From assembly GCF_041260155.1 (NCBI RefSeq), contig NC_091929.1:44932244-44996243 (forward strand): a stretch of 64,000 nucleotides of DNA. The letters run 5' to 3'. The DNA comes from Ptychodera flava. Taxonomy: Eukaryota; Hemichordata; Enteropneusta; Ptychoderidae. The notes under the pieces were generated by a model that saw only the letters and a program-made list of their open reading frames with translations, did no database searches and was not told where the DNA came from. The position numbers and the translations under genes were made by a program. This document shows positions 2,878-61,163 of the stretch, one piece after another (within the stretch, counting starts at the first letter, position 1; every line of letters starts with the position of its first letter).

Positions 2878-5800
2878 ATGACCTGTGGGATAATGCGAAT
2901 TATGTTAGTCCCCAGCATCGCTCTGCTTGTGTGTTTTGTCTCGTGTTGTGTTGGCAGGACTGCTGAGGAATGGAAGACACGGGTTGTGTATCAGGTACGT
3001 TGTCAGAAATTTCTTGATAAAAAGTCAATTTGAAAGACGATGATATAGAGTTGGGCATGGTGCAATTCCTGAATGAAACTGAACAGTACTCAGCTTAACT
3101 CTGGTGGAACAAAAAAGCGGGGTTTTAGACTGGATAAGGGACGAGATATCGGAACGAATTTAGCCATCGTTAACCATCTAGAATATGTTTGAAATCTTAC
3201 ATTCAGATTACACTTAACCTTGGTTATCTTTAAGTGAACGAGGAAATGACGTTATTACGGAAAAATATCAAATTTTCAACTTCGTTCATTGCCAAGTAAT
3301 CCTATATAAGAACTAAATGTTTTCAAGGACCACTTGTTTCTATGTGACGACAATTTTCAAACTAAAGAATTTCTGAGTGGATATGATGCCAAAATGTCAG
3401 TTAGTACTTGGGTGTAGTACGGTTTTGAGCATGTGCACCGAGTACTTAGACTACACTAGAATATGCCGGTGACGACGAAAGAAGTTTGCAAAGCTTGCTA
3501 AAGGATGCGCTGTGACACGTTATTATCCAGGAAAAGTTTTACCATAAAAACAATGTGAAGTAAATAATGTATGGTTTTCGACTTATAACACTCCGTGTCA
3601 TTCGGTCCGGTTTACTGATGGCATGGACAATCTTTGAGTGCTACCATTTATTCAAACTCACGTTTTCTTGTCATTATTTCTCAAGGACGAGAACTTGAAA
3701 CTTCTCTCTTTGTCATATCCAGTTTTCCCTACAAGACCAAAGTGTGCAGTTCAGGGGTCGCTTGCGAATGGCTAGACTTTGATAAAAAATGTTGCTCAGG
3801 CTTTTGTGATTCTATGCCAAAGTTTGACATGGAATATTATACATCAAATAAGTTTCGGTTGGTATTCGACAAACTTATCAGCGACTGGTGCTCCGGCCAC
3901 TTGACTCCATAAATCACTAAAGTACCTCCTCGTTGTGTGAATTTACATACCTTATCATGCGCTCAGCGAGTGTCGTAGTTTCTTTTATCTTGATTTACGA
4001 CCTTATCATATGTGGAACTCCAGACAACCCAAAAATCCCTTACAAATCTATGAATTCGTATTATCCTTTATTTTATAAATTGTGAGGAATTATGAACAAA
4101 TCAGTCCATGCAAGCTGTTCGCAACTTCCTTAAGTCTTGTAAATTCCCGGGCACACTTACTGCATCAGTTGTTTCACTTCTCCTTCCTCTCAGCTATAAG
4201 GCTCAACCCATAGAGGTCATTTTATCTTAATTAAATCTTACAAATGTCCTCTCCTCTTGATAATGTCAATACACATTCTATAACACTTAATCGAGTCGTA
4301 TTCCCTGCCTTGAGGCCAAAGACTACTAGTAATTTCTAATTCCTTCTCTCTACCTGGCTCCCACTGATCATAAAAATTGCTCACCAATAGTTCCAGCCAG
4401 CACTTGCAAAAAAAAAAAAAACTTCGCCACCACAAATCACGTAAAAACTTGTAAAAAGCGTTTTCCGCACAAGTTCGTCAGCTTCCCTGGAAAAATCGAA
4501 AATAGCGTGTATGTAATGTGTCGTTTATCTCCGACATTCTCACAATTCCGGTCAACTATCATCATACAAGTACGCCATAATTGAGCAATAATGTACCCCC
4601 GGACCATAATGGACGAACGGAAACTTTGCACACATAATGTACGAGTAAAATGAAAAAAATTGCTTGGGTCCATTATGGGCCAGGAGGGTGTACATTATTG
4701 CTATAATTTATAGCTTTGGCAATGCCTTGGAATCTTTTAATGCAAAAGACATCTTGGGTTATAATGTTGAAAAATCGGATACATTGTCAGTATAATCCGA
4801 GGGATGACGTCACAAATTCACTGGTATTGACAAAGCTTTAATATAATAACAAATATATCTTTGTGTATTTCTTTGTTCGGACATACTTGTACATAACGAT
4901 ATTTTATCACGTTCTGCGGTCCTATGATGAAGGAACAAAACAGCGCCATCAATCGACCAAGTCTGTATGGATTTTTCACACGTTTTTGCTGTGTTTTGTC
5001 AGAAATGTTTCTTACTGGCAAATGTTAGAGATTTATCATTCACGGATGGTTTACTTGTCATTTTATGCCGGTACAATATTCTCGGAAATCACAAAGTTTT
5101 GATATACCTGTTTCCCATTCTGTATTTTCCCATCTCATCTATCAATTGTTTGTCTCATCGAATTTTTCTGTAAAATGAACACCACACGCTGACGAAGTCG
5201 CCGTAATATGAAAAATTTCCTCACATGAGATAAATTCGGTCAAAATTTTGTGAATTAACTTACTTCGTTTTCGTTCTGTTTAGATTGTTATAGATCGCTT
5301 TGCACACACAAGTGAATCACCAGCCCGGCAGTGCACAGATACGTCTCGATATTGTGGCGGTACCTTGAAAGGAATCGAAAGAAACCTTGATTACATCACA
5401 AACTTGGGTGAGTAAAATGCATTATGTTAGCCATACCGTTTAAGCATTTCAACTCACCGTTTTCTATAAAATTTTTGTGCTCGAGAAAGATCAAAAATGT
5501 AAAACTAGAAGGAAAAAAATGTTTGAACATGTTGTTGAAATAATCACTGATATTTGCTTTCGAGTAAAGCGAATTTCTAGTTATAGAAATGACATAAGTA
5601 TATAGACTATGTTTAAAATGACAAGAAGACAGTTTCAAGTATATGAACAGATGAACACAAAACATTTCTTGTAGCACGTTCCATCTTCTATCTATCACTG
5701 TTCCTTCTTTCCTGTTTTATTGCCTTTAGTCACTGAACGTTTGCATCAAAATATTCGTAGCTCCTATCTCGAGACATATTTGTCACGTCAGGTTTTCCCT

Positions 5801-60100: not shown

Positions 60101-61163
60101 TCACAGTGAGAAATCAGAAATTATGATTATCAGAACTATGTCGCCAGAATTTGGAAATATGGACCGAGTTGTTCTGTGTACAGAAGAAATTTGCTTCAGT
60201 TCAGTGAGTGATCTCCGTGTGTACAGATCATGGAGAATTGTGGGTAGCCTCACTTACTGTGTACCGGGGAAGGAAAATCTGTATTATTTATAGAACATTC
60301 TATTATTGTCAAAGTGGAGTTCAAGTTATTGCTTCTTAGTGTCCAAGAGGAAAGTTGAAGCAAAAGTTTCAGTCTTTCAAATTCGAGGTGCATACTACCT
60401 TAAATGACATCTTTTGATGTGATTATACTAGTTTATCCAGAGTTGCACTACAGCATGTGATTGTAACTTTGTTCTCTCTTTAATGACACAATAAAACATT
60501 GTTTTCCTCGCATTTAGACATTCGTCATCATCAGTGATGGCGGCTATACCTCGCAATCTTACAGATATCTGATAAGACGTCACCCTTTTGAAAAGGAAAC
60601 TGGTAAGTTGAAGGTTTTGACCTGTGTTGTATTTACCTGGTTGAAAATGGCAGAAGTAAAGAATGGAGCAACAATATGCATTTTGCATGTCACAGCGACC
60701 TCAATATGGGAAGGTTTTGATGCTATTGTTTTCCGTATGGAGTATGTGCATTTTGTGTATGTTACTATGAAACAACGCCTTCAGCAGATGTCTTTGACCG
60801 TAGTTCATAAACCATAACATGACGCATTGATTGCAAGTCAACTTCTTCATATTGGAGCCTTTAAATGGCGAGAGTAACACCTGTGTATTGTCATCATGTT
60901 AACACAACGAAAATAAATCATTTTGTATCGTTTTGTCTCGTAGAAGCCATCACAACCACGACTATTTCTGTTCATTTATTTCAGTATTGACAAACATCTT
61001 TGACCCTACTGACACCGTTACAGTGCAGAACAACGGTACATTCTACGTTACCCTTGAAAACAATGAACCGAAGATCTACAGCGGAGGATCAAAAAGAAGT
61101 CAAGGCCTTGTCTTTATTCCGGCGATGGGTGCCATCTTCTACCATTTATTCACCGGATGTTAA
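54114..61163 (+). pseudogene. Gene D: amylase-like copy, exons 2-11, with three one-base losses
   Basis: Exons: 54114-54242, 54704-54872, 55578-55700, 56285-56413, 56849-57067, 57788-57916, 58116-58226, 59559-59680, 60518-60602, 60985-61163. Boundaries and phases match A and B except that exons 2, 4 and 9 are each one base short: exon 2 around gaaaatatctgg, exon 4 at its first bases, exon 9 at gtcatgattatc. Each shifts the frame. No good exon 1 is nearby. Where the frame holds, the protein is closest to A: GFRIS, IIGQ and GGYIDNDIVGRF, with Ser, Gln and Ile in place of the catalytic Asp, Glu and Asp. The last exon ends in the hydrophobic tail. Either a recent pseudogene, or a gene carrying assembly errors; the missing exon 1 favours pseudogene. 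Confidence 0.78.
59272..59346. repeat. (AT)n microsatellite in gene D intron 8
   Basis: About 75 bases of at units with a few interruptions. Confidence 0.95.

Follow-up and report, generated by a model that had tools for sequence, protein, structure and literature searches.

The window analysed here, 64,000 nucleotides of the acorn worm Ptychodera flava (NC_091929.1, positions 44,932,244 to 44,996,243, forward strand), carries a tandem family of amylase-like genes. In two of these, A and B, the sequence type of glycoside hydrolase family 13 subfamily 1 (GH13_1) and the predicted fold are kept, whereas the catalytic triad, further residues of the -1 subsite and two calcium ligands are gone. 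Purifying selection has acted since A and B split, and where the active site used to be, A, B and a third, broken copy (D) share a set of novel residues. As the triad was lost yet the genes look preserved by selection, A and B probably took on a different function at the cell surface, unrelated to digestion. Judged from sequence, they are probably secreted, membrane-anchored pseudo-amylases that most likely bind their own ligand or partner there without hydrolysis.

Gene A comprises 11 exons (2878-14300, +) that splice to a protein of 506 aa. This product matches the NCBI P. flava protein P0001 at 506/506 residues, encoded on a 53.1 Mb contig, and contamination or an assembly artefact was rejected for A because this identical protein exists. 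Gene B (18501-27465, +) encodes 505 aa and agrees with the NCBI model P0002 from exon 2 onward. The first exons differ; the NCBI model has no leader, which the exon at 18501-18617, similar to exon 1 of A, would provide. P0002, being the same gene as B, was left out of counts and trees. All introns of both models are GT-AG, and A and B contain zero stops, frameshifts or non-canonical splice sites, as expected from the sequence-only reading that had both open across 11 exons. The exons are as follows, with replaced positions numbered as in TAKA amylase.

2878-2994 (+): gene A exon 1, start codon and hydrophobic leader, identical to P0001
5284-5407 (+): gene A exon 2, spliced model
5917-6097 (+): gene A exon 3; Lys105 (codon 5988-5990) at the Tyr82 position
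6686-6806 (+): gene A exon 4; Arg144 (codon 6693-6695) at the position of calcium ligand N121
9476-9610 (+): gene A exon 5; Ser222 (9596-9598) at the nucleophile position, Lys191 (9503-9505) at that of calcium ligand D175, Asp225 and Asp226 at those of K209 and H210
10124-10342 (+): gene A exon 6; Gln246 (10181-10183) at the acid/base position
10846-10974 (+): gene A exon 7; Val317 (10897-10899) at the third acid position, Asp316 at that of H296
11216-11323 (+): gene A exon 8; Ser360 at the D340 position, His363 at that of R344
12090-12212 (+): gene A exon 9
12908-12992 (+): gene A exon 10
14122-14300 (+): gene A exon 11, stop codon and C-terminal hydrophobic tail
18501-18617 (+): gene B exon 1, where P0002 has another first exon
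20566-20689 (+): gene B exon 2
21981-22161 (+): gene B exon 3
23277-23400 (+): gene B exon 4; His144 (23284-23286) at the N121 position
24088-24216 (+): gene B exon 5; Ser221 (24202-24204) at the nucleophile position, Lys190 (24109-24111) at that of D175
24644-24859 (+): gene B exon 6; Gln245 (24701-24703) at the acid/base position
25232-25360 (+): gene B exon 7; Thr315 (25283-25285) at the third acid position, Gly314 at that of H296
25648-25758 (+): gene B exon 8; Asp358 kept at the D340 position, His362 at that of R344
26231-26353 (+): gene B exon 9
26813-26897 (+): gene B exon 10
27287-27465 (+): gene B exon 11, stop codon and C-terminal hydrophobic tail

In place of the Asp/Glu/Asp (D/E/D) triad of GH13, whose roles are stated in PMC5347038, A has Ser/Gln/Val (codons TCT/CAA/GTT), B Ser/Gln/Thr (TCT/CAA/ACC) and D Ser/Gln/Ile (TCT/CAA/ATT). 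All nine codons had been read in this way before, and the coordinates recomputed from the spliced models of A and B agree. In a sequence alignment with TAKA amylase (2guy), the Ser, Gln and Thr of B fall on D206, E230 and D297, and A aligns likewise with 6sao and 6sav, so that no Asp/Glu/Asp comes to stand at the catalytic positions. The structural alignment spans the whole domain, which describes coverage at domain level, the residue pairs being taken from the sequence alignments. D/E/D was present in 149/156 aligned proteins; the other seven were A, B, D, P0003 (D/Q/D), P0004 (D/H/D), the truncated model P0012 and the distant P0037, whose alignment is doubtful. A further alignment set A, B, D, P0003 and P0004 beside 63 relatives, of which 63/63 carry Asp206 and Glu230 and 62 carry Asp297, the remaining one having a gap there. 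The sequence alignments with 2guy, 6sao and 6sav and the 149/156 count led us to reject misalignment as the cause of the missing triad.

The functional roles of the remaining cleft and calcium positions are those we take them to have in amylases generally. In A and B, N121 is replaced by Arg/His, D175 by Lys, H296 by Asp/Gly and R344 by His; the exchange of the region I calcium-site Asn for Arg or His, already noticed in the sequence-only reading, corresponds to Arg144 in A and His144 in B. The change from Lys-His to Asp-Asp after the nucleophile was likewise seen in both proteins, at positions (K209/H210) that also vary among relatives. Both have lost a stretch of domain B, removing two cysteines conserved elsewhere, and the E162 region is deleted (alignment judged by eye; the E162 position is <93% conserved and lies outside the conservation test below). 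R204, H122 and W83 are retained in both, whilst A lost Tyr82 and D340, which B retains. With the triad included, 7/9 subsite positions are lost in A and 5/9 in B, and neither protein has the full complement of calcium-site and -1 subsite residues of an active alpha-amylase.

The scaffold is nevertheless kept, as had been proposed. PF00128 was the sole Pfam match of A and B (cut-off E 0.001), their best solved relatives are fungal GH13_1-type amylases, and the AlphaFold2 (AF2) model reached a pLDDT (predicted local distance difference test) of 90.1 and a pTM (predicted template modelling score) of 0.90. The (beta/alpha)8 barrel, domain B and C-terminal domain of GH13 are all recognisable. By sequence and tree, A and B are closest to fungal and animal GH13_1 and sister to hemichordate GH13_1 (100/98), a placement that is distinct from a CAZy assignment. 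A short N-terminal hydrophobic stretch begins at residue 14 (A) and 8 (B), and each protein ends in a hydrophobic tail of 17 residues, with a mean hydropathy of 1.89 in A, where 2 residues follow, and of 1.84 in B, where 1 follows. On hydropathy, leader and tail suggest secretion and membrane anchoring, which in hemichordates would be GPI-like (glycosylphosphatidylinositol). A, B, P0045, Glandiceps P0005 and Saccoglossus P0006 share a hydrophobic end followed by 0 to 2 residues (6 in P0003); in sponge, annelid and brachiopod relatives 13 to 26 residues follow such a stretch.

Selection on A and B was apparent from the ratio of nonsynonymous to synonymous substitution rates (dN/dS), which over 503 codons was 0.225 by NG86 (0.167-0.299), 0.285 by YN00 and 0.263 by maximum likelihood, at a dS of ~1. 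For A-D it was 0.31-0.44 (419 codons) and for B-D 0.23 and 0.25 (420 codons). A codon model of A, B and D gave an omega of 0.288, and omega=1 was worse by 74 log units. In neutral simulations without insertions or deletions, 0/400 frames stayed stop-free at each of three divergences. The dN/dS between A and B is below 1, in line with the selected role suggested earlier, with the caveat that the A branch since the D split stands at ~0.5.

The losses were concentrated at the old active site. We compared active-site or calcium positions with others, using positions conserved in >=93% of relatives; 67/155 proteins from two protein searches entered the alignment, and the test used these minus P0002 plus B and D. 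Conserved positions were lost at 9/11 active-site or calcium positions vs 13/72 others in A (P = 6e-5), 7/11 vs 13/72 in B (P = 0.003), 8/11 vs 10/56 in D (P = 0.0007), 7/9 vs 10/60 in P0004 (P = 0.0005) and 6/9 vs 14/40 in P0003 (P = 0.13). Between A, B and D, the segments around this site have nonetheless diverged less than the remainder. Differences between A and B amounted to 12/75 in active-site segments vs 168/428 in the rest (ratio 0.41), between A and D to 9/72 vs 93/347 (0.47) and between B and D to 9/72 vs 141/347 (0.31). The same ratio was 0.15-0.48 for five active pairs, and 0.71 (A) and 0.65 (B) against P0045. The residue set common to A, B and D reads SDIDD and GQAS.

Further members of the family place these losses in order. 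P0001-P0004, P0045, P0156 and P0163 are all listed on a 53.1 Mb contig. Counting every short model as a separate locus gives nine loci or remnants (A, B, C, D, P0003, P0004, P0045, P0156, P0163), of which 8/9 are not intact enzymes. P0045 has D/E/D and is 70% identical to a Glandiceps protein; this protein and two Saccoglossus proteins also have D/E/D, so the proposed search for species keeping the triad was successful. A and B are 41-44% identical to P0045. P0163 reads D/R/D; the truncated P0156 shows Asp and Gln, and NHD can still be made out close to where the model stops (scored D/Q/gap in the alignment); in P0003, P0004, P0156 and P0163, Glu is the sole loss within the readable part of the triad. 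The claim that every copy lacks all three residues thus stood for A, B and D and did not extend to the P. flava family, in which these four keep the nucleophile Asp and P0045 the full triad. Several P. flava models outside the window are short. P0003 and P0004, which keep both Asp and have Ser or Cys for Arg204, showed no extra active-site conservation (ratio 1.08) and may be on a different path from A and B, possibly decaying.

The tree joins A to D, then adds B and after it the pair P0003+P0004, giving a single P. flava pseudo-amylase clade (100/100) with a long stem (0.88). Its sister group is the clade of active hemichordate proteins (support for the two clades together, 100/98). A second tree adding P0156 and P0163 kept the same arrangement. 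Support for the A/B/D clade (99/98) agrees with the earlier statement that Ser and Gln predate the A/B/D duplications, Gln being older than Ser. Parsimony puts the loss of Glu before the other two, with Asp206 and Asp297 disappearing only on the A/B/D branch. A recent descent of the pseudo-amylases from P0045 within P. flava was rejected (pseudo-amylases + P0045, approximately unbiased test, P = 0.006), as was a clade of pseudo-amylases, P0045 and Glandiceps (P = 0.003), although long branches may pull both tests; rejection of the former suggests, within that limit, that the duplication preceded the divergence of the acorn worms sampled. No other animal species had such copies among the matches listed (44; best 120 of 1403; best 120 of 710). 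Among 237 aligned proteins (235 listed database matches plus B and D), this was the only animal triad-lost group. The other comprised ten environmental clusters of <=144 members (P0199, P0203, P0206, P0222, P0224, P0225, P0226, P0230, P0232 and P0233), a GH13_1 clade (SH-like approximate likelihood ratio test, 100) with Ala for Asp206, Ile for Glu230 and Asp297 retained; a hydrophobic C-terminal stretch was seen by eye in 7/10. Its triad loss is independent, as the clade lies far from that of the acorn worms in the tree.

Copies C and D, and the 3' flank that D shares with A, lie at:

29440-29556 (+): copy C exon 1, intact-looking, nearest P0004 (70%)
31036-31119 (+): copy C exon 11, a weak degraded trace, best E 0.004 (P0003)
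54114-61163 (+): copy D, exons 2 to 11, with Ser at 56399-56401, Gln at 56906-56908 and Ile at 57839-57841
13833-17638 (+): 3' part of A and downstream flank, shared with D (60710-63766); three pieces of 81-85% DNA identity, the last 67%

As only exon 1 and the weak exon 11 trace are present, the catalytic residues of C are unreadable. D has no recognisable exon 1, and one-base length changes in exons 2 and 9 break its frame (judged by eye), making it a pseudogene unless these are assembly errors. Taking a disrupted frame or splice sites and an omega near 1 as marks of a pseudogene, A and B do not qualify, whereas C and D show the disruption. C exon 1 was rejected as the lost exon 1 of D, being 70% identical to P0004 and 50% to A, yet A and D are 76% identical over 419 codons. 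C and D are consistent with continuing birth and death of members. The identity of A and D rises 3'-ward: it is 70-78% across exons 2 to 5 and reaches up to 91%, at exon 9, which may reflect gene conversion; the shared flank includes an ATCAC array (15216-16607; ACATC at 62173-62641). Between C and D lie transposable-element-like fragments on the minus strand (33012-33332, 36144-36521, 50802-51269), with reverse transcriptase RNase H (PF17919), a C17orf113-type zinc finger (PF25431) and a weak, sub-cut-off RVT_1 match. A 397-base tandem repeat (2.5 copies) occupies 37695-38693, and an interspersed repeat occurs at 31394-31848 and 44862-45331 (83% alike). Rfam and tRNA scans gave 0 matches.

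One genome thus holds an intact amylase, copies in which visibly only the acid/base is lost and copies that lost all three residues, which makes each stage between enzyme and pseudoenzyme open to reading and testing. In the scenario we propose, a GH13_1 amylase of early hemichordates that carried a tail for membrane anchoring would have duplicated, and one duplicate would have lost the acid/base Glu. Its change to Gln would block hydrolysis while sugar binding could remain, as the titles of structure entries for sugar-bound E257Q CGTase (cyclodextrin glucanotransferase) indicate. Copies would then have multiplied on one chromosome, and the A/B/D branch would have lost the nucleophile and third Asp, its cleft being rebuilt as Arg-x-Ser-Asp-Ile-Asp-Asp plus Gln-Ala-Ser. 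More tentatively, this motif pair may line a conserved pocket for a new ligand, carried by a GH13_1 scaffold anchored at the cell surface. It would have arisen step by step, by way of a Glu-to-Gln form, still represented by P0156 and P0003, that bound sugar and no longer cleaved it. The same speculative proposal has the environmental clade, with a hydrophobic tail in most members, taking this route independently, which would make tethered GH13_1 amylases a recurrent source of non-hydrolytic surface receptors.

Several observations weigh against a selected surface-binding role. B keeps the Tyr82, Trp83, His122, Arg204 and Asp340 positions, and part of its sugar subsite therefore survives. The segment ratios of three pairs with P0003 (0.92, 0.96 and 1.08) show no extra conservation. 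Strands of the barrel core lie within the conserved segments, whose conservation may thus be partly structural. The membrane anchor is a prediction from hydropathy. By branch-wise parsimony with B as outgroup, A (0.51; 53 nonsynonymous, 31 synonymous) does not differ from the pseudogene D (0.47); constraint since the A/D split may be weaker than the pairwise average, or D may have broken only recently.

Three other explanations were weighed. The dead copies could be regulatory partners that stabilise or steer P0045, their active paralog, or else some other enzyme or transporter of the cell surface. The intact-triad P0045 is on the same 53.1 Mb contig, fold and hydrophobic tail are retained, and inactive GH13 partners have precedents (ISA2 in plants; 4F2hc for SLC7 transporters), but A and B are only 41-44% identical to P0045 and we consider this rather unlikely. 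Less likely still, the copies are roleless relics yet to be destroyed, left by birth and death after activity was lost. The broken state of C and D, the A branch ratio of ~0.5, like that of D, the short outside models and the restriction of such copies to Ptychodera among the matches listed would all fit; against this, a dN/dS of 0.225 persists at a dS of ~1, omega=1 is much worse, and A and B have no stop, frameshift or non-canonical splice site. Glucan hydrolysis or transfer through relocated acids, e.g. the new Asp at positions 207, 209 and 210, is highly improbable: these acids adjoin the nucleophile position and are identical in A, B and D, and BmaN1 is active with His for the third Asp (PMC5347038), but BmaN1 retains nucleophile and acid/base, whereas A and B lost both, plus H296, R344 and two calcium ligands. 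A non-hydrolytic binding role at the cell surface remains our preferred explanation for A and B, and the case cautions against annotating such genes as alpha-amylase.

A and B belong by sequence and tree to the same subfamily as hemichordate and other animal GH13_1 alpha-amylases. Desiderato et al. (PMC7003070), in the accessible portion, report hemichordate GH13_1 sequences and count three for P. flava, of which two form a tandem; inactivity is suspected there only for short mollusc sequences and one annelid sequence with a deletion. That portion describes no inactive hemichordate copy, whereas eight of the nine P. flava loci or remnants found here are not intact enzymes. The main text of PMC8467227, as far as available, makes no mention of Ptychodera, Saccoglossus or hemichordates. 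From TAKA amylase (Aspergillus oryzae, 2guy/6taa), A and B differ at the triad, N121, D175, H296 and R344 and in the lost cysteine-pair stretch of domain B. BmaN1-type alpha-amylases share with A and B a replaced triad residue, but only the third Asp is affected and the enzyme is active, so losing one triad residue need not abolish activity (PMC5347038).

The sequence-only reading had likened the family to SLC3A heavy chains. Its non-hydrolytic part agrees with purifying selection in the absence of the triad, whilst SLC3A itself serves only as an analogy, A and B being GH13_1-like with a short N-terminal stretch and a C-terminal tail. Of the GH13 proteins at the cell surface for which no activity is proven, 4F2hc and rBAT (SLC3A2 and SLC3A1; GH13_34 and GH13_35) are best known (PMC8537225); rBAT retains the triad and 4F2hc, like A and B, does not. 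Subfamily and topology differ, A and B matching only PF00128. SLC3 heavy chains are joined to an SLC7 light chain by a disulfide. No Pfam family for the cytosolic domain that precedes the type II helix in SLC3 was found in A or B (E 0.001), nor is there room for one, as the hydrophobic stretch begins at residue 14 or 8. The absence of 4F2hc and rBAT among the structure matches listed excludes nothing. A and B may, by analogy, work like 4F2hc and rBAT without being SLC3 members. Plant ISA2 (GH13_11), a non-catalytic partner of ISA1, is likewise a GH13 paralog with non-catalytic functions. ISA2 has lost its catalytic residues; it is intracellular, of another subfamily than A and B, and has a known partner. 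We know of no animal case besides SLC3 in which a GH13 scaffold serves a non-digestive role, and, if the role proposed here is true, A and B would be the second.
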